DNA of 64,000 bases from Clostridia bacterium (lineage in GTDB: Bacteria; Bacillota; Clostridia; Oscillospirales; Acutalibacteraceae): the NCBI GenBank assembly GCA_017452785.1, contig JAFTLT010000012.1:19046-83045 (forward strand), written 5' to 3'. The notes under the pieces are model-generated. The model saw only the letters and a program-made list of their open reading frames with translations, was not told where the DNA came from and did no database searches. The position numbers and the translations under genes were made by a program. Below are positions 48,058 through 63,778 of this stretch, in pieces; position 1 is the stretch's first letter; every line of letters begins with the position of its first letter.

Positions 48058-48911
48058 TTAAGCAACATACTGACTTCGTTTTTCTTGCGGAGTCAGTTTT
48101 GATTTTAATTGAATTCTTTCGTTGTTGTAAAAGTGAATGTATTGATCTATGAGGAGGCGAGCCTCCTCATAGGTTCGCAAATTCGTTCGGTATATGCATT
48201 CTGTTTTGAGAATAGAAAAGAAATTCTCAGCCATAGCATTATCATATGGATTACCACGTCTTGACATTGAGGGCGTAATGCCGTAAGATTTAGTCAGGTT
48301 AAAATATGCTTGCGATGTATATTGAAACCCTTGGTCACTGTGGAGCTGCAACTCTGCAGTGACTTTTTCTTTTCTCTTAGCTGCTCTGATTGTGCTTAAT
48401 ACAAGATTTATGTTTTGTTCTGTACCGGTTTTGTATGCTATGATACTGTTATCATACAAATCTCTGATTACTGAAAGATACAACACCCTTGATGTGTCTT
48501 TATGTATGATATATCTGTTACCCATTTTTGATTAGGTCTTTCTGCTTTGAAATCTCTGTTCAGAAGATTTTCATACCGGTGAAGACAGTTCCCGTAATTG
48601 CGATATTTCTTTCTTCGGACTTCTGATAACAAGTTATATTTCTGCATAATTCTTAATATGGTCTTTGGATCATAGTGTATTCCTTGTCTTTCAAGCCATA
48701 TATGCACTCTGCGATAACCATAGGTTTTTCCGTTCTTTACTTGGCATTCCTTTATCTTTTCGGCTAACGGTAAGTCTTTCGCAGGGATATCCATTCTTTT
48801 TACATAATCATAGTAACCGCTTCTTGATACTCCAAAAAAACGGCACATTTCACTTATTGAATATTTTTCTTTATGACGATAGATAACCATAAACTTTACA
48901 CTTGTTCTCAC
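48058..48911 (-). pseudogene. IS3 transposase orfB, frameshifted
   Basis: DDE integrase of the IS3 family. Seen: 'GYRRVHIWLERQG' and 'NQKWVTDISYI' (first Asp) in the first part, 'HSDQGFQYTSQAYF' (second Asp) and 'NPYDNAMAENFFSILKTE' (catalytic Glu) in the second. The frame changes near 48486-48490: 'YIKTHQG' continues as 'VLYLSVIRDLY' only if one G is added to a GGG run. It is either a dead copy or a sequencing error. The first part starts at GTG 48911, overlapping the orfA stop. Confidence 0.88.
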
Positions 48912-49258
48912 TTCCTTTCTGTGAGCGAGAGAAAATCCCGCATCAATTCGTTTTCCATTTCCAATTGCTTGATTTGTCTTTCTTTCCTTGCGAGGTCATA
49001 TTGCAACTGTGTAACTTTACTTAATTGCTGAATTGATGGTGGCAAATTGTTATCATCTTTTCGTGGTCTGCCTCTTCGTTTCAATGTTATTCCTGTCGCA
49101 AGTTTTCGCTGGTTGCTATTGTATCTTGTTAAAAAGTTATCTATTTGTTTTCTGCTAAACCCTAACTTTTCACCTATTTCTCTTAGTGTTAATCCTTGAG
49201 CTTTTAAGGATAATATTTCTCTTTCATATTGTTTTACATTTCTATATTCTCGTGGCAT
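48908..49258 (-). CDS. IS3 transposase orfA
   Basis: 116 aa DNA-binding half of the IS3 transposase. Seen: helix-turn-helix 'SLKAQGLTLREIGEKLGFSRKQIDNFL' in parts and a C-terminal leucine-zipper-like coiled coil 'LARKERQIKQLEMENELMRDFL' in parts. The stop overlaps the orfB GTG as GTGA; an A/G-rich AAAGGAAG lies before it, which can serve as ribosome site or as a frameshift site. ATG start has GGGGGATTTTTT upstream. Confidence 0.88.
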   Translation of the reverse strand: MPREYRNVKQYEREILSLKAQGLTLREIGEKLGFSRKQIDNFLTRYNSNQRKLATGITLKRRGRPRKDDNNLPPSIQQLSKVTQLQYDLARKERQIKQLEMENELMRDFLSLTERK

Positions 49259-52482: not shown

Positions 52483-53133
52483 ATGGCGCAAAGAATTGGC
52501 AAAACAATTATCTTAGACTCTAAGCCACGGATTATAGGTAACGCTGCAGTGGTTGGCAAAAAAGAGGGCGAGGGGCCTTTAGGCAGTGAATTTGACGAGA
52601 TTTACGAAGACACAACAATGGGCGAGGACTCGTGGGAAAAGGCAGAGAGTCTCTATCTTAAATCGGCAGTTGCAAGGGCACTTGAAAAGGCTGCTGTCGG
52701 CACGAGTGAGGTGGATGCCATATGCTCAGGGGATCTTTTAAATCAGTGCATTGGCTCAACCTTTGGCCTGAGGGATTTCAATATTCCCTTCTGTGGCGTT
52801 TACGGTGCTTGCTCAACCATGGCGCTGAGTATGTGCGTAAGCTCCCTTATGATAGAAAGCGGTGGAATGAGCTGCTGTGTGGCGGCAACAAGCTCGCATT
52901 TCTGTTCGGCGGAAAAGCAGTTCAGAAAGCCTCTTGAATACGGCGGACAACGACCACCCTCAGCGCAGTGGACGGTAACCGGTTCAGGTGCGGCAGTGCT
53001 GAAAAAGTGCAATTCGGATATAAGCCCATATATAGATAAAATCCACCTTGGCACCATTCAAGATTACGGCATAACCGACAGTAACAATATGGGTGCAGCA
53101 ATGGCACCTGTAGATGTTAAAATAGAACCATAA
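52483..53133 (+). pseudogene. spoVAD: stage V sporulation protein AD, truncated
   Basis: Thiolase-fold DPA-binding protein. Seen: 'RIGKTIILDSKPRIIGNAAVVGKKEGEGPLG' in parts, 'GACSTMALSM' and 'GITDSNNMGAAMAP'. Normal SpoVAD has about 335-340 residues; this one runs 216 and leaves the family sequence right after 'MGAAMAPV' (about base 53112), ending in six unrelated residues. About 120 C-terminal residues are missing and are not found downstream. The break coincides with the start of the accessory region with a TnpV remnant. Either the gene was cut by an insertion/deletion or a second intact copy exists elsewhere. Confidence 0.85.
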
Positions 53134-56461: not shown

Positions 56462-57439
56462 ATGGATATGTTTAATAAAATTTGCCTACAGTTAGATTTA
56501 GGCGAAATAATAACAGAGCCGACTCAGCTTAAAGGCGGATTTATGCACAAGATGTATTCACTGTTCACAACAAATGGCAAATATGCAATCAAGCTGTTAA
56601 ATCCTTATGTTATGAAGCGTGATACTGTTTTTGAAAATTACCGTATTGCTGAAGAACTTGAAGCAAAGTTAGAGCAAACGGATATTCCAATACTTCCGGC
56701 TTTGACTTTTCACGGCAATAAGATGCAAGAAATTGACGGACAGTATTTTTATTTGTTCGATTTTTATGAGGGTAAATCTCTCAAAGATGAAGAAATCACC
56801 ATTGAACACTGTCGCAAAATAGGTGCATTTCTTGCTAAAATACATAATATCGAAAAGAAATCACAGCCTCACAATCGAAGTGAAATAAATGTTGATTGGG
56901 ATATGCTTATTGAAAAGCTTTCAGAAAATAATACCGAGTTATATAATCTTTTAAGTGGCAACCTTGACATTCTTTATGAAAGCCAGCAAAAGGGTAATCT
57001 TGCTGTAAAGAAGATGCCGCCTGTACTGACAATATGCCACAATGATATGGACAGCAAAAATGTTCTTTGGAACGGTGACGATTGCCGAATTATTGATTTG
57101 GAATGTCTTTGCTATTCAAGTCCGTTTGTTGAACTATATGAAATGGCTTTGTGTTGGTCAGGTTATGAAAACTGTAATATTGACTTCAATCTTTTCAAAG
57201 CTCTTATCAAGTCTTATGCTAACAATGGTGGTGTACTGCCTGATGATTGGGAAACAATCTATTACAGCAGTTATGGTCGTTTAGAGTGGCTTGAATATAA
57301 CGTTAAGCGTGCATTAGGCATTGATTGCGGAAAAGATGAAATTGAAATGGGCATTTCAGAGGTCCGTGAAACTATGGAGCATATAGTATATTATCATGGT
57401 GTCCGAGATGAGATTTTGGAGTGCTTGAATAATTTATAA
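56462..57439 (+). CDS. APH/choline-kinase-like phosphotransferase
   Basis: 325 aa small-molecule kinase fold. Seen: N-lobe 'LKGGFMHKMYSLFTTNGKYAIKLLNP' in parts with the ATP lysine, 'YFYLFDFYEGKSL' hinge, catalytic 'TICHNDMDSKNVLW' (HxDxxxxN) and metal-binding 'CRIIDLECLCYSSP' (D.E). This is the layout of aminoglycoside phosphotransferases and choline or homoserine kinases. Closest substrate cannot be told from the motifs. Last gene of the cassette, closed by a strong hairpin. Confidence 0.85.
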   Translation: MDMFNKICLQLDLGEIITEPTQLKGGFMHKMYSLFTTNGKYAIKLLNPYVMKRDTVFENYRIAEELEAKLEQTDIPILPALTFHGNKMQEIDGQYFYLFDFYEGKSLKDEEITIEHCRKIGAFLAKIHNIEKKSQPHNRSEINVDWDMLIEKLSENNTELYNLLSGNLDILYESQQKGNLAVKKMPPVLTICHNDMDSKNVLWNGDDCRIIDLECLCYSSPFVELYEMALCWSGYENCNIDFNLFKALIKSYANNGGVLPDDWETIYYSSYGRLEWLEYNVKRALGIDCGKDEIEMGISEVRETMEHIVYYHGVRDEILECLNNL

Positions 57440-57453
57440 AAGTGAATATGAAC

Positions 57454-57499
57454 CAACCGCCTTACTTGTGTTTTGCAGGTAAGGCGGTTGTTGTTGTTA
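57454..57499 (+). terminator. rho-independent terminator of the cassette
   Basis: Perfect 12-bp stem CAACCGCCTTAC (57454-57465) with GTAAGGCGGTTG (57479-57490), 13-nt loop, followed by TTGTTGTTAG. Confidence 0.85.
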
Positions 57500-57537
57500 G
57501 AAAAATTGTACAAGTTGAGAGGGCGTTAATTGTTGAT

Positions 57538-57544
57538 TTCGACA
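57538..57544 (-). promoter_or_regulatory. possible Spo0A box upstream of the LytTR gene
   Basis: TTCGACA, reverse of the TGTCGAA core, in the context TTTCGACAAA. A second, TTTTGTCGAAAA, is at 58141-58152 past the gene. Seven bases are short enough to occur by chance. Confidence 0.3.
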
Positions 57545-57636
57545 AAGTTCGATATTTTTCGAGAAAATGGTGTTACTTTTTCCTTTATACAGCACTTTAT
57601 AGATATAAGACAGATTATATTTTAAGGAAAATGCTT

Positions 57637-58125
57637 ATGGAAACAAAAGAAAACAAACACATCAAAACCAAAGAGGAAATAGTGGAAATTCTGAATAGCA
57701 ATGGCTTATCACATTATTCAGTAACATATCACGGTTGTAACGGATTTTTCATTCCTGCAAGTGACAGTGAAAGTTGTCGTACCTACCCTGGTATATCCGT
57801 GACAATGTGTAACAAGGACATTTGCAGAGTGTACCCGCACAAAATTATATACATTGCCATTGAGGACAGAAAATCCGTATTGTATCTAACCGACAGGAAA
57901 ATCGAAACCTACTGCTCAATGGACTATTGGAAAAATGTTCTTGATGAAAATTCCTTCGCCCAACCCCATTACAGCTACATAGTCAACCTGCATTATGTGG
58001 AAGAGGTAACTAAGGATTTCGTTACACTCAAATGCGGTGAGTATGAGTATAAGGTTTATACTTCAATGAGAAAGATAGGTGCGTTTAAGAAGGCTGTAGC
58101 GGAGTTTGAAAGAAATGCAAAATGA
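57637..58125 (+). CDS. LytTR-domain DNA-binding regulator
   Basis: 162 aa with a C-terminal LytTR domain (about residues 60-158). Seen: 'IIYIAIEDRKSVLYLTDRKIETYCSMDYWKNVL' in parts, 'FAQPHYSYIVNLHYVEEV', 'VTLKCGEYEYKVYTSMRKI' with the family pattern H-x-S-Y-I-V-N. There is no receiver domain; the N-terminal ~60 residues are not recognised. ATG 57637 is chosen because AAGGAA lies 7 nt upstream; the frame is open much further upstream but reads through the previous terminator. Sits alone before the defence locus; target unknown. Confidence 0.82.
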   Translation: METKENKHIKTKEEIVEILNSNGLSHYSVTYHGCNGFFIPASDSESCRTYPGISVTMCNKDICRVYPHKIIYIAIEDRKSVLYLTDRKIETYCSMDYWKNVLDENSFAQPHYSYIVNLHYVEEVTKDFVTLKCGEYEYKVYTSMRKIGAFKKAVAEFERNAK

Positions 58126-58237
58126 TGCGAAAAACAAGCGTTTTGTCGAAAAAATGAAGCGTTTTTGTAAAATTTGTTGAGTTTTAAGATAAAACAATAT
58201 ATTTTTATAAGTAAATATTACACAAATAATTATTATT

Positions 58238-58453
58238 TTAATCTTCAAGGTTAGTGCTTCTATTATATAAACACTTTCCTGTATCATTATTAAACATCAT
58301 GCATCTGTTTTTTACACAAGGTAAAAATTCCGAAACAATTACATCGTTATCACGAATAGCATTGACTCCTATATGGGGAACACGAGCATCGTGAATTGTA
58401 TTGTGAATAATTATGGTTTTATGTAATATAGGACAAAGTTTAGTTGGTTTCAT
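58238..58453 (-). CDS. small cysteine-containing hypothetical protein
   Basis: 71 aa, family unknown. Cysteines at 7, 46, 51 and 61 (CP, CVKNRC, GKC) could hold a metal. A GGAGGG ribosome site 7 nt upstream supports translation. It is divergent from the RdrA-type gene, 105 bases away, and shares its AT-rich composition, so it may have come in with that locus. It fills the otherwise empty 430 bases between the LytTR and RdrA-type genes. Confidence 0.55.
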   Translation of the reverse strand: MKPTKLCPILHKTIIIHNTIHDARVPHIGVNAIRDNDVIVSEFLPCVKNRCMMFNNDTGKCLYNRSTNLED

Positions 58454-58506
58454 TTTTTTCCCTCCAAGTTGATATTTACATAATCATACAACTGTTCAGT
58501 TAAAAA

Positions 58507-58531
58507 ATATGTCATATTATTAGATATGTCA
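58507..58531 (+). promoter_or_regulatory. direct repeat upstream of rdrA
   Basis: Two ATATGTCA copies at 58507-58514 and 58524-58531, start-to-start distance 17 bp, in the region between the divergent genes and just before the AAGGAG ribosome site. Could be an operator; no clear sigma-A promoter was identified. Confidence 0.4.
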
Positions 58532-58558
58532 AAATAAAGTAAGGAGAAGAATATCGTT

Positions 58559-61198
58559 ATGAAAGATACAAACGCAGAAAGAAAATTAAGAATTAATGTT
58601 GTTGCAGGAAAGGAGTTCCAACTAAAGATAGTAAACATATCAAAAACTAGATATATTACTAATGATTTTTTCTATTATGTCTACAGTGATGCATATAAAG
58701 AAGCAAAAAAAATCATTCTTGAGAGTAACAACAAAAATAAAGAGCTTCAAGAAACAACAAACAATATTATAGCATTTTGCGGAGAAAGAGGACAAGGAAA
58801 AAGTAGTGCAATGCTCAGTTTCTCTAAACTTCTGAAAAATGGCAACAAGAACACGGTGGTTGAATCTTTTAGTGAATTTTACAGAGATTTTAGTAACTAT
58901 GAATTTAAAGTATTAAACAGAATTGATCCTACTGAGCTTGAAAGCTGTCATAGCATATTAAGTGTAATTATTTCAAGGATTTTCCATGAATTTCAAGAAA
59001 AATCAAACGAAAGCACTACCTTTTCTCAGGAAAAAAATGAGTTGATTAATCTTTTTCAACTATGTTATCAAGATATTGATATAATAAAAAATGCGAAATC
59101 TTTCGAAAAATTTAATTATGGTTACGAAGATGATCTGGAAGAATTATCAATGCTTAGTGACAGTGCTAACATAAAAGAGCATTTTTCAAAATTGGTTAAT
59201 AAGTTTTTAGATTTTGTTTGTAACAAAAATGACCATTATCTTGTTATTCAAGTTGATGATACCGATTTAAATGTAAGTAAAGCTTACGAGATAGCAGAAG
59301 ATATTCGAAAGTACTTTATGATTCCTAACGTAATAATTTTGATGGCTGTTAATACAAAATTGCTTGTAAGTGCAATCGAACAAAGTTTCCAAAAAAGTTT
59401 TGATCTTTTAATGAAAAATTCCGTTATCAATACGAATCAAACTCATGCAATGGCTTTGCGATACATCAACAAATTAATTCCTGGTAGTAGAAGAATTAAT
59501 CTTCCGGAAATATCAAGAAACTGCTCTCCTTTTGATAGTTCAATCGAACTTCAGTATATCGATAACGATAAAAAGCAAAGCTCATATGATGATGAAAATG
59601 ATTTTGTTTCTTACGGTGATATTCAGGAAAAAGTATTGGGATTGATTCATGAGAAAACAGGTATAATTTTTGTTAAACGCTCAGAAGTATTACATCCAAT
59701 AATATCCAAGAATACACGTTCTTTAGTCAACTTTTTATCTATATTAAATGATATGACAGAGTTGTCTTTAAATAAAGATTCTTGTTGCATTAATGATATG
59801 TTTGATTTAAGTGATGAAAATAAACGAAAAGAGAACATTAAAAGGATTAAAGCTAGAATAGAAAATATCGAAAAGCTTGAAGAATACTTTATGTTTACCT
59901 GGATTGAGGAAAATGTAGGAGTAATTGCTCGCGGAACAATAGAAGAATGGCGCAATGCAACGTTTGAAGACAAAAACAAATTTATGATTGCATTTTTAAA
60001 CAGTACAATTTCAACTCTTTATAAAACAAATGCAATTGCTTCTGATGAAGGGATAAATATTGTTAACATTGATGATTATGATACAGAATCTGATATCGTA
60101 AGTAATAAAAATACTGTTCGTAATGTCCTGAAAATATTGAGAAATTATGAAAAATACTATAATAATGAAGCAACAAAAAATTTAACTTTTGCAATACAAA
60201 CAATTTATTCTATAGCAATAAACAAATTTTTCTGCAATCAAATCTTGTTAGAGAATGAAAGAAAACGTAATGAAAGCAGTATTTATAGTGATGTATCTTT
60301 AATTGATTTTACTGGTTCTGTACTACAAGAGCTTTTCCAAAGTTTAATTCCCAAGGAAAGAAACAAATCAAAAACTTGTTTTGTTTCTAGATTACCTGCT
60401 AACGTGCTGAAAGAGAAAACTAACTATGATTTTTCATCTGTAATGGGATTAATTTCGCTTTTTGGCATTTGGGATTATAATGAGTTAAGTACATCATCAA
60501 TAGACAAAATGAATGATTATATGAATTATTCATTTGATGTATCTTTGCCAATAGTAAAATGTGCCCAAGGTCCATCATATTTTTTTGATATTAACAAAAG
60601 TAATCATTCCGACTTATTTAATACCCGTATAACTTGTTTTCAAATAATTGCTAATGTAGAGTTGATATTAGAATTAGAGAAAATAATCCAAAACAAATCA
60701 CATATATTTAATTTAAAAAGGAGGGTTAAATCTCGTAGACACAAAAACATTATTTCACAATATATTAATGCATATGATACTATTATTATGTATTTGGAAA
60801 GCATTAATTATATAAATACAGATGGACTCAGTTTTGCGTGGATAACAAAGCAAATGGAATTTAACGAGAAAATTTTTATGAAAATATACGAACGAAGAGA
60901 ATTAGCAATTGATGATTATGGCTTGCTGTTAAGATATTATTCTCAACTTGAACCATTCAAAAAAACTTATACAATAGAACTTTTAAAAGAAAGGCTTATA
61001 AGTACTAGTAAATTATTTACCTCAATAAAAAATAGTATTTCGGTGATTGACTTGTCATTTGAAAATGGTGAAATTGAAAATATATTGAAAACAATCGAAG
61101 GTAAGGAAAAGCTTTCAGAAAAAAAGTGTTCAGAACATCAAGCAAGCATAAATAAATTCATCAAATCTGCAAAGGAAAAACTTTCGAAATATCTTTAA
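58559..61198 (+). CDS. rdrA: RADAR system P-loop ATPase RdrA
   Basis: ATPase partner of the RADAR anti-phage system, where RdrA works with the deaminase RdrB in very large complexes (known). Seen: Walker A GERGQGKS at 75-82 in 'IIAFCGERGQGKSSAM', Walker B 'YLVIQVDDTDLNV' with D233 and D234, a KAP/STAND-like NTPase core in the first ~330 residues, then a long helical region to 879 aa with no named domain. Size (~900 aa) fits RdrA. The assignment depends on the next gene: an 850-aa adenosine-deaminase protein 18 nt downstream. AAGGAGAAG upstream. Strongly AT-rich compared with the housekeeping part, a sign of transfer. Confidence 0.85.
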   Translation: MKDTNAERKLRINVVAGKEFQLKIVNISKTRYITNDFFYYVYSDAYKEAKKIILESNNKNKELQETTNNIIAFCGERGQGKSSAMLSFSKLLKNGNKNTVVESFSEFYRDFSNYEFKVLNRIDPTELESCHSILSVIISRIFHEFQEKSNESTTFSQEKNELINLFQLCYQDIDIIKNAKSFEKFNYGYEDDLEELSMLSDSANIKEHFSKLVNKFLDFVCNKNDHYLVIQVDDTDLNVSKAYEIAEDIRKYFMIPNVIILMAVNTKLLVSAIEQSFQKSFDLLMKNSVINTNQTHAMALRYINKLIPGSRRINLPEISRNCSPFDSSIELQYIDNDKKQSSYDDENDFVSYGDIQEKVLGLIHEKTGIIFVKRSEVLHPIISKNTRSLVNFLSILNDMTELSLNKDSCCINDMFDLSDENKRKENIKRIKARIENIEKLEEYFMFTWIEENVGVIARGTIEEWRNATFEDKNKFMIAFLNSTISTLYKTNAIASDEGINIVNIDDYDTESDIVSNKNTVRNVLKILRNYEKYYNNEATKNLTFAIQTIYSIAINKFFCNQILLENERKRNESSIYSDVSLIDFTGSVLQELFQSLIPKERNKSKTCFVSRLPANVLKEKTNYDFSSVMGLISLFGIWDYNELSTSSIDKMNDYMNYSFDVSLPIVKCAQGPSYFFDINKSNHSDLFNTRITCFQIIANVELILELEKIIQNKSHIFNLKRRVKSRRHKNIISQYINAYDTIIMYLESINYINTDGLSFAWITKQMEFNEKIFMKIYERRELAIDDYGLLLRYYSQLEPFKKTYTIELLKERLISTSKLFTSIKNSISVIDLSFENGEIENILKTIEGKEKLSEKKCSEHQASINKFIKSAKEKLSKYL

Positions 61199-61216
61199 TT
61201 TACAGAGGATTTGCTT

Positions 61217-63778
61217 ATGAATTCAGAATGTAATAATTTAAAAATACTTTTTAGAATTGCAAAACCTGATAAAATTTCAGTAACACATAACAGAAAAAAT
61301 CGTTTTCTTCGTTTTAATGAAATTTCAAAACAGCTTTATATCGATTATGCTCGTGAATGTTATCCAACATATTCTGAAAATGAGATACAAGAGTATTATA
61401 ATCAATTAAACTACTTGTGTAGCACACATGAAACAAAAAACTATTTTTATCTGTTAGCTGATTATGGAAAAAAGACATTAGAACTGTGGAATGGGTCACC
61501 TGTCGTAAAATTTGATTCCATAATTGATTGGCATGATATATCGCATGAAATCAGTCAAGATTTAATTATTTCTGCATATCTGGCAAATAATTCTCTTGAA
61601 AAACGAGTAAAACAAGATTTTTTTGCGTGGCCTACCACTCTAAAGACATCGAACCGACAACTTCAGAACATTTTAAATAATGGTATATCAGAAAATCATT
61701 ATCATTTAAATGGTTCTACGCAAGTTTTTCCAATTACATGGGTAAGCCTTATGAATTTACCAACACAAATTGTAGATGTTACAAAAAAAATGGGAGTTAA
61801 TTTGACTTCATCTTTAATGTGGGGTGAAAGCGATAATCAATCTTCGTGGAATGAATTGTTAAAAGAAGCTGCGGCAATAAGATACAATCTTTTCTGTGCT
61901 TTGAATAACTATAACATGAAAATTGATACAAAAAAATGTTATGTGTCATTCGCTGAATTGCAAAGAAACATATTTGGCATTTCTTTTTATGCAGCTTTTA
62001 AAGATACAAAGTATAAATATTCTCTAGACTACGCTTTGACAAAACGCATAGATGTAAATAATTATCATTATAACCGTATACTTGCAGGCGAACGAAAATT
62101 TCTGTATGACTGCTTTTTTTCGTCATTTAGTGGAAAGTTTAATGATGAACAGAACAATTTGTTTTATAAGTATGTATTGATAAAAACCAATTTTAGAGCA
62201 GAAATAATACAGAGCAATAAGTTAAGTGGTTTTAAAAATTTTGCAAACTATCAGGATAGAAAAGGATATGCAATAGAAGGGATACCAAAATATGCAAGAG
62301 AGGCAATTCGCACATCCATTAATGAAGTGCTTGATGAACAACCCATTATATCATTAGAAACAAGAATTATGCCTAGAGACAGAAATGATTTGCTTGTAAA
62401 GAACATAAATTATTATGACGAGACTTATAAAAGCTTTCTTGAAGAATTAAATAATATAACAAAAAAAGAAAGCATTACATATCCTCATTTTTATGTTCTT
62501 CACTATCCAAAAGGAACAGAAAACCTTAAGCAACGAAAACATGGCGTTTCAAGAGCAAGAAATCAGAAACAAAGAGAAAAATACAAGAAGTGTTCGAAAA
62601 CAACAATGTATTCGTTAAGCCACTTGAATTGTTTAAGAAATAGGGTTTTGGGAATAGATGCTTGTTCAAATGAGATAGGTTGCAGACCAGAAGTATTCGC
62701 AACCGAATATCGATATTTAAAAGAATATAATATGCAACATCGCTATTCTCAGTTTAATCTAGAAAACTCAACTACATTCTATTTAAATAGAACTTATCAT
62801 GTTGGGGAAGATTTTCTTGATATTATTGATGGTTTAAGATCAATCGATGAAACAATTCGATTTTTGGGCTTTTCTTATGGAGACAGATTTGGTCATGCTC
62901 TTGCATTGGGAATCAATCCCCACGATTATTACAAATTTAAAAACTATAAAATCATACTTCCATGTCAAGATGCATTAGATGATTTTGTTTGGATATATAT
63001 GCGTTCAAATGAGATGAATATTTCAATTGAACCAATATTAAAACAAAAAATAGAATCAATAATTAATGAACTGGCAAATTATATATATTACGATTTTATT
63101 AAGCGAACACCAAATCTTAATATATCAGTATCGCCTTATGATTTGTTTAGTGCATGGAAATTAAGAGGGGATAATCCTGAGTGTTACCGAAACATTAAAT
63201 TTACATCAAATGGTCAAATACAAACTAGATACGATAGAGCAAAATATGAAGAAACACCTGAGCTTAATGACATAAGAAACCAAGACAGTGTTACTGCTCT
63301 TTATTATGCTTATCATTATGAATATAGTGTTAGGGCTGCAGGAGAAAAACCCTATGAGTTCGAAATAACTCCTGAATACATAGCATTGGTTTCACAAATT
63401 CAGAAAAAAATGCAATTCGAAGTTGCTGCAAAAGGTATTATGATTGAGTGCAATCCTTCTTCTAATTGTTTAATTGGTACTTTTAAAACATACGAAAAAC
63501 ATCCAATTACCTCTTTTTTTAATCTCCATTTAGAAAGTAATGATGAAATAATTAAAAATTGTCCTCAACTTTCAGTATCAATAAACACTGACGATCAAGG
63601 CGTTTTTGATACATCACTTGAATATGAATATGCGTTGATGGCCTCTGCATTAATCAATGTCAAAGATGACAGTGGAAAAAACAAATATTCACCTTCACAG
63701 GTATATGAATATTTAGATTGTGTTCGAAAGATGGGTAATGTTCAATCTTTTAAAAGTCAACAGAATAGTAATAGGTGA
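61217..63778 (+). CDS. rdrB: RADAR system adenosine deaminase RdrB
   Basis: Adenosine-deaminase-fold effector of RADAR; reported to deaminate adenosine in RNA and/or ATP to ITP during infection (known, debated). Seen: metal HxH in 'SENHYHLNGST' (H161, H163), catalytic 'TYHVGED' (H528, E531), 'DRFGHALALG' (H560), 'ECNPSSNCLIG' and 'SINTDDQGVFDTSLEYEYAL' (D792, D793): the full ADA metal and catalytic set, in order. 853 aa is far larger than housekeeping ADA (~350) and fits RdrB. ATG 61217 is chosen because AGAGGA lies 8 nt upstream; a TTG two codons earlier is too close to it. 18 nt after rdrA. Confidence 0.87.
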   Translation: MNSECNNLKILFRIAKPDKISVTHNRKNRFLRFNEISKQLYIDYARECYPTYSENEIQEYYNQLNYLCSTHETKNYFYLLADYGKKTLELWNGSPVVKFDSIIDWHDISHEISQDLIISAYLANNSLEKRVKQDFFAWPTTLKTSNRQLQNILNNGISENHYHLNGSTQVFPITWVSLMNLPTQIVDVTKKMGVNLTSSLMWGESDNQSSWNELLKEAAAIRYNLFCALNNYNMKIDTKKCYVSFAELQRNIFGISFYAAFKDTKYKYSLDYALTKRIDVNNYHYNRILAGERKFLYDCFFSSFSGKFNDEQNNLFYKYVLIKTNFRAEIIQSNKLSGFKNFANYQDRKGYAIEGIPKYAREAIRTSINEVLDEQPIISLETRIMPRDRNDLLVKNINYYDETYKSFLEELNNITKKESITYPHFYVLHYPKGTENLKQRKHGVSRARNQKQREKYKKCSKTTMYSLSHLNCLRNRVLGIDACSNEIGCRPEVFATEYRYLKEYNMQHRYSQFNLENSTTFYLNRTYHVGEDFLDIIDGLRSIDETIRFLGFSYGDRFGHALALGINPHDYYKFKNYKIILPCQDALDDFVWIYMRSNEMNISIEPILKQKIESIINELANYIYYDFIKRTPNLNISVSPYDLFSAWKLRGDNPECYRNIKFTSNGQIQTRYDRAKYEETPELNDIRNQDSVTALYYAYHYEYSVRAAGEKPYEFEITPEYIALVSQIQKKMQFEVAAKGIMIECNPSSNCLIGTFKTYEKHPITSFFNLHLESNDEIIKNCPQLSVSINTDDQGVFDTSLEYEYALMASALINVKDDSGKNKYSPSQVYEYLDCVRKMGNVQSFKSQQNSNR

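Follow-up and report, generated by a model that had tools for sequence, protein, structure and literature searches.

A divergent RADAR pair at the end of a clostridial contig

A 64,000-nt stretch from the genome of a Clostridia bacterium (contig JAFTLT010000012.1, positions 19,046 to 83,045; hereafter the window) carries at its right-hand end two adjacent plus-strand genes, rdrA and rdrB, which very probably form a two-gene RADAR (RdrA-RdrB) anti-phage system of a deep branch whose members come chiefly from Bacillota and Bacteroidota. The rdrA gene (58559-61198) encodes an AAA+ ATPase of 879 amino acids (aa) with a predicted C-terminal helical lobe; rdrB (61217-63778) encodes an adenosine-deaminase-fold protein of 853 aa when read from its ATG, a TTG at 61211, 6 nt before the ATG, being a possible alternative start. 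Both proteins are intact, the RdrA and RdrB folds are predicted for them, the catalytic residues are kept, and the genes belong to a conserved neighbouring pair. RADAR is an already known kind of system, and the locus adds one divergent member to it. An earlier note, made from the DNA letters alone, had proposed this membership and had given the limits of both genes and the 18-nt gap between them; the list of open reading frames (ORFs) agrees with these coordinates and lengths, and structure comparison and profile searches concur in the assignment to RADAR.

Catalytic residues and predicted folds

The RdrB protein contains the motifs HYH at 161, HVGE at 528, GHA at 559 (H560) and NTDD at 790 (D792, D793), the metal and catalytic residues being H161, H163, H528, E531, H560 and D792. 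In RdrA, the Walker A motif is GERGQGKS at 75-82 (G80, K81, S82) and the Walker B motif VDD at 232 (D233, D234). A script check bore out the motifs of both proteins as listed in the earlier note. H161, H163, H528, H560 and E531 are invariant in all 75 aligned RdrB rows, the window's included, and identical in Escherichia coli RdrB. Likewise invariant, in an alignment of 54 of the 75 rows, and common to the E. coli protein are E381, R383, H429 and K432, which lie outside the part matched by the Pfam deaminase model; the conserved C-terminus of RdrB is also present. Across 64 RdrA rows, the Walker A lysine is found in 63 (the remaining row has a gap), while the Walker B aspartates and R387 are found in all 64. 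R387 was identified as the sensor-2 arginine by alignment with that of Streptococcus suis RdrA, the E. coli sensor-2 residue being outside the aligned piece. A helical insertion, the crown, occupies about 133-220.

Structure comparison with predicted models placed the ATPase with RdrA rather than outside its clade: the solved RdrA structures are the nearest to its AAA+ core and helical insertion, and the first Foldseek match is S. suis RdrA (8FNU). The deaminase groups with RdrB, well above other amidohydrolases, and shows the large insertions that the RdrB architecture adds to a simple deaminase core. Its match to E. coli RdrB is near full length at 18% identity, as seen by a second look with VIA-align rather than by a separate search. 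A search of the PDB with the single RdrB sequence also returned the E. coli RdrB chain (3.5e-22).

Recognition by family models

The window RdrB is matched by the NCBIfam RdrB model at 1.4e-59 (202.5 bits; cut-off 800) and by PADLOC RdrB at 5e-30; NCBIfam RdrA matches its partner at 5.4e-18 (64.8 bits; cut-off 600). Profile searches with alignments of relatives agree with the RdrA and RdrB assignments, the best RdrA match being the S. suis protein (3.3e-48, nearly full length). Judged by the NCBIfam, PADLOC RdrB and E. coli RdrB chain scores, the sequence similarity to RdrA and RdrB is beyond chance. All 54 RdrB rows are matched by the PADLOC RdrB models, and all 54 by NCBIfam RdrB at E<=1e-20, with a best value of 4.8e-63 that is far under the 800-bit cut-off; the two PADLOC RdrA models match 35 and 24 of 52 RdrA rows (window included) at E<=0.01. 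Known RADARs are about as far from one another: PMC9994260 gives identities of 22-25% for their RdrA ATPase domains and 24-28% for the RdrB C-terminal parts, and the RdrAs of E. coli and S. suis share less than 20%.

Pairing, descent and distribution

A scan of genome contigs gave at least 591 candidate stretches, with 314 relatives among the matches listed; the best 80 were retained as loci, designated below by L numbers. In 75 of these loci the sequence extends for 1.5 kb or more ahead of rdrB, and 71 of the 75 have an RdrA-like ORF upstream on the same strand (blastp E<=1e-3 against the window RdrA). The best-matching RdrA piece overlaps rdrB or lies within 120 nt of it in 63 of these 71 loci; it is farther away in eight, where RdrA comes as two ORFs (L019, L040, L042, L043, L073 and L075), masked bases (L017) or a 232-nt gap (L078). 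As to the four loci with no RdrA match, two have a partial upstream gene at the contig edge (L026 and L035) and the others a broken (L061) or truncated (L065) rdrB. RdrA and RdrB distances correlate over 64 pairs (r 0.77; none of 999 permutations as high), which fits co-inheritance of the two proteins.

In a tree of 87 RdrB rows, the window protein groups with 20 rows from Bacillota and one from Bacteroidota in a set of 22 (support 99). The enclosing 80-row branch (51 Bacillota, 20 Bacteroidota, 2 Fusobacteriota, 2 Thermodesulfobacteriota and 5 ungrouped) is split with support 99 from seven outgroup rows of our own choosing, namely the Cetobacterium, Aliivibrio and Salmonella plasmids and four viral contigs. 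The nearest rows by path, an Oscillospiraceae metagenome-assembled genome (MAG), Desulfosporosinus and Ruminiclostridium, are far off (1.98-2.04 changes per column). Since the sample was picked by similarity to the window, the tree was a quick one and the outgroup branches are long, only the gross split should be trusted.

Distribution was surveyed in phage, plasmid and viral-contig records and in genome samples of the family and the order. RdrB turned up in 4 of the 300 family-sample genomes; among the 394 genomes sampled from the order, long matches likewise gave 4, the window's own genome being counted in each; three more in the order sample are short matches to the deaminase end. The four other listed genomes of the genus gave no RdrB match, nor did the phage records. 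Seven matches were obtained in plasmid records, each below 60% identity, and viral contigs gave none with the single protein as query and five with an alignment. Among the plasmid pairs, that of Aureibacter, which belongs to the window's branch, and those of Cetobacterium and Salmonella, which are more distant, carry the label of hypothetical proteins; the Aliivibrio pair is annotated by name.

Two observations were made in passing. Four contigs classed as viral (L093-L096) carry RADAR-like pairs, with RdrB at most 27% identical to that of the window; these served as outgroup rows. In a genome of the window genome's family (G214), an RdrB-like ORF (L005:871-3087) looks decayed: the N-terminal HxH part was not seen, HIAE stands for HVGE and GNTA for GHA, and there is no RdrA match within 4.2 kb.

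Comparison with known systems

Several points weigh against the RADAR assignment. Both proteins score below the NCBIfam equivalog cut-offs (NF041743 and NF041744; 600 and 800 bits), PADLOC, with the threshold relaxed to E<=1, found no RdrA in the window, and a PDB search with the RdrA sequence by itself gave no match. The Foldseek TM-scores of the RdrA model against 8fnu reach only 0.46/0.50, with a root mean square deviation of 18.3. While the C-terminus is all-helical, 779 is the last model residue aligned with 8fnu, and the model's confidence score (pLDDT) is below 50 over residues 602-687 and 754-838, so that the sensor lobe of RdrA is poorly tested. The fold models, moreover, rest on alignments of the very relatives used elsewhere, and the distance correlation may come partly from shared species descent. 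At the level of single residues, E151 and R162 of the E. coli RdrA crown align with N160 and Q171 (K150 is kept as K159), the sensor-1 residue D253 corresponds to N265 in the window and to K in S. suis, and E595-E597 of E. coli RdrB align with N635, I636 and S637.

The RADAR of E. coli P0304799.3 (8FNT, 8FNV, 8FNW) resembles that of the window in the metal and catalytic residues, in gene order and, as modelled, in both folds; it differs in having the acidic three-fold interface E595-E597, taken by us as the mark of the E. coli type, and the crown residues E151 and R162; for the interface and the crown residues alike, a role in assembly was proved by mutation. The positions equivalent to the acidic triplet, N635-I636-S637 in the window, are not conserved among 54 RdrB rows. 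As the catalytic residues are kept and the assembly residues are not, it is the contacts that appear to have diverged and not the catalytic sites. Absence of the assembly residues sets the window pair apart from the E. coli type and is no ground for leaving the RADAR family. The S. suis SS993 system, source of the best profile match and of the first Foldseek match to the window RdrA, has the sensor-2 arginine, as does the window, and both lack the sensor-1 aspartate.

Two other identities were considered. Cad1, the CARF-adenosine deaminase of type III CRISPR systems, is a hexamer with the CARF sensor on the same chain and without an RdrA ATPase; it was rejected, the window protein having the RdrB architecture. 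A BREX ATPase was likewise rejected, with BrxC far below the RdrA chains (21.5-24.6) in comparisons with the window ATPase; no BREX genes were recognized by eye among the ORFs of 38000-64000.

Surroundings of the locus

In the intergenic region upstream of rdrA (58126-58558, plus strand), AAGGAG lies ahead of the rdrA start, and the rdrA-rdrB gap (61199-61216, plus strand) has AGAGG ahead of the rdrB ATG; by eye, both are plausible ribosome-binding sites. The 18-nt gap and its AGAGG suggest that the two genes are on one transcript. Promoter-like sites in 58126-58558 do not exceed the number expected from shuffles (28 found, 35.5 expected). The higher A+T content of the two genes reported in the earlier note is borne out: G+C content is 0.278 in rdrA and 0.301 in rdrB against 0.421 in window positions 1-58125, and at third codon positions 0.22 and 0.21 against 0.44 in the rpoB ORF. 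Of the 80 loci, 63 have an RdrA together with 6 kb or more of flank; in 52 of these the RADAR genes are poorer in G+C than the flank (median difference -0.03, lowest -0.146), and the window is near the low end of the family range. The chromosomal location also claimed in the note is backed by rpoB/rpoC-like ORFs (by eye) and a SpoVAD ORF (Pfam) on the same contig; because of these, the locus is likely to be chromosomal and the lineage a spore-forming one.

The right edge of the window, 222 nt past rdrB, is also the end of the contig. From 63796, 17 nt after the rdrB stop, to 64000 runs the right end of a Mutator-family insertion element (minus strand), which we take to be IS256-like and which is cut by the contig end and is not part of RADAR. 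This 205-nt stretch is found again where another contig of the same genome begins (C54; 95%), and it also forms the terminal part of a longer element in a congener (G304). The ORF of that longer element, as read, covers positions 26-378 of the 379 in the Pfam Transposase_mut profile (5.1e-110). When the DNA beyond the far side of the element was sought in the assembly, only the two right ends were found. The last 222 nt have a strong predicted single-stranded DNA fold (z -5.0); the idea of a structured site after rdrB was dropped, the stretch being the end of the congener's element. Rfam gave no matches in the window at gathering scores. On contig C54 (L101:1-729), the neighbour of the element end is a partial ORF of the AIPR (abortive infection) family, which matches the Pfam profile at 6.3e-27 over positions 27-128 of 308.

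Three side observations concern other parts of the window. At 48058-49258, transposase pieces, presumably IS3-type, occupy three short ORFs of the minus strand, two of which contain rve and HTH_21, and adjoin another ORF, which we assume to be alaX-like. The SpoVAD ORF (52483-53133) stops after profile positions 3-206 of 329, a truncation or an assembly error. At 57431-57581, a small repeat of about 120-150 nt runs up to and into a LytTR-protein ORF; five of the sampled congeners have counterparts of 80-88% identity. When a RADAR-free version of the site was sought in 20 sampled congeners, 56462-58125 had no syntenic match, only pieces of 42 to 528 nt.

Alternative explanations and proposed mode of action

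The earlier note had described the locus as a minimal version without an RdrC- or RdrD-type gene. It is true that no third gene is seen in the window; however, with the contig ending inside the insertion element, the DNA that follows rdrB is out of view, and absence of a third gene cannot be stated. One may envisage that the pair is a relic or silent, having been acquired by transfer and then deprived of a needed third gene, removed or separated by the element. The closeness of the element to rdrB, the G+C content of the genes (lower by 12-14 points than elsewhere in the window) and the element copy abutting a partial AIPR gene on C54 would fit such a scenario. So would the frequency of third genes: among loci with at least 1 kb downstream of rdrB, an ORF of 100 aa or more, read in the same direction, begins within 60 nt of rdrB in 25 of 73, or 24 of 72 without L061, where it is the second piece of the broken rdrB. 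Yet the other 48 of these 72 loci have no close third ORF, a standalone rdrAB subtype is described beside Csx27- and SLATT-associated ones in PMC7699616, and neither window ORF is shortened: no catalytic residue is missing, and RdrB has its conserved C-terminus. We consider a relic or silent pair unlikely.

The preferred reading remains that of a two-gene RADAR, whose anti-phage function would follow by homology. In characterized RADAR (PMC9994260), the ring formed by RdrA attaches to the RdrB shell; infection leads to conversion of ATP and dATP into their deaminated forms, ITP and dITP, and the nucleotide pool is thereby poisoned. By analogy, the window RdrA would be a ring-shaped ATPase with a helical crown docking on RdrB, itself a hollow multimer with zinc deaminase sites facing outward. 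A cue from phage infection, perhaps perceived through the RdrA C-terminal lobe, would trigger the system; activated RdrB would turn ATP and dATP into ITP and dITP, and the spoiled pool would halt phage replication and arrest the infected cell. That the pair works by RNA editing instead, as proposed in the original RADAR report according to PMC7699616, seems to us very improbable. A housekeeping purine-salvage deaminase next to an unrelated ATPase deserves practically no credence: Pfam A_deaminase does match RdrB, just over the cut-off (29.4 vs 27) and at residues 736-810 only, but the near full-length RdrB match extends far past a plain deaminase core and rules out a plain adenosine deaminase, an RdrA-like ORF accompanies rdrB almost throughout, and occurrence in the family and order samples is sporadic.

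Third genes and split RdrA in the branch

Some of the close third ORFs look unrelated to RADAR (HsdR in L037, a topoisomerase in L040, a PD-(D/E)XK nuclease in L049, SIR2-TIR in L053), so closeness alone is no proof of a shared system. Four loci from three families have a leucine-rich-repeat (LRR) gene right after rdrB (L066:10462-13056, L067:10489-13122, L063:10545-13493 and L068:10485-13736), with gaps of -38 to +24 nt counted from the first possible start. Homology links the LRR proteins: the L066 protein is 60% identical to that of L067 and matches those of L063 and L068 at 4e-12 and 8e-8. PADLOC gave no match for them. The RdrBs of these loci fall in one 5-row set (support 98), the fifth row of which (L003) has no adjoining LRR gene. 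An LRR-associated RADAR subtype is possible. Neither LRR nor STING partners of RADAR appeared in the titles and abstract openings returned by literature searches, which does not show them to be unpublished.

Other third genes were each seen in one or two loci. In a Prolixibacteraceae MAG (L064:10553-11212), the ORF that begins 2 nt after rdrB encodes 219 aa; the product is hydrophobic near its N-terminus and matches the Pfam prokaryotic STING domain at 4.3e-12, and a nucleotide cyclase could lie among the neighbouring ORFs. In L018:4892-6253, a macro-domain protein (Pfam Macro 2.7e-19) with predicted membrane stretches is encoded 11 nt after rdrB. Csx27-like genes are found in L055:9206-9847 (4.2e-11; 151 nt past rdrB) and, weakly, in L077:10531-11175 (2.9e-4), and SLATT/DUF4231-like genes, under the Pfam cut-off, in L070:10855-11490 (1.6e-3) and L008:10732-11439 (3.2e-4; the record names a SLATT domain).

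RdrA is split in two ORFs in L040:5522-7906, L042:5571-8008, L043:5592-8008, L073:5064-7674 and L019:191-3282, L042 and L043 being near copies. The ATPase ORF of these loci measures 310-364 aa, and the second ORF resembles the C-terminal part of unsplit RdrA (L040 against L037, 4.5e-31). RdrA is possibly split also in L075:5403-7987 and L039:5196-7996; in view of the overlapping frames in the former and the short N-terminal piece set apart in the latter, frame errors are possible, some loci being from MAGs.

We tentatively raise the idea, which we hold to be rather more doubtful than probable, that RADAR is a modular platform made of an RdrA-RdrB core and exchangeable third proteins (LRR, STING-domain, macro-domain membrane, Csx27-like and SLATT-like), with the RdrA sensing lobe separable as a gene and with the window's third part lying beyond the element or displaced by it.

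Significance

NCBI's equivalog model does not name the window's branch, which is mostly from Bacillota and Bacteroidota. Since the proteins are recognized only weakly by models of this sort, RADAR counts made with such models may be too low. With its conserved catalytic core, fast-changing C-terminal lobe, split RdrA and varied third partners, the branch offers natural experiments on what RADAR senses.
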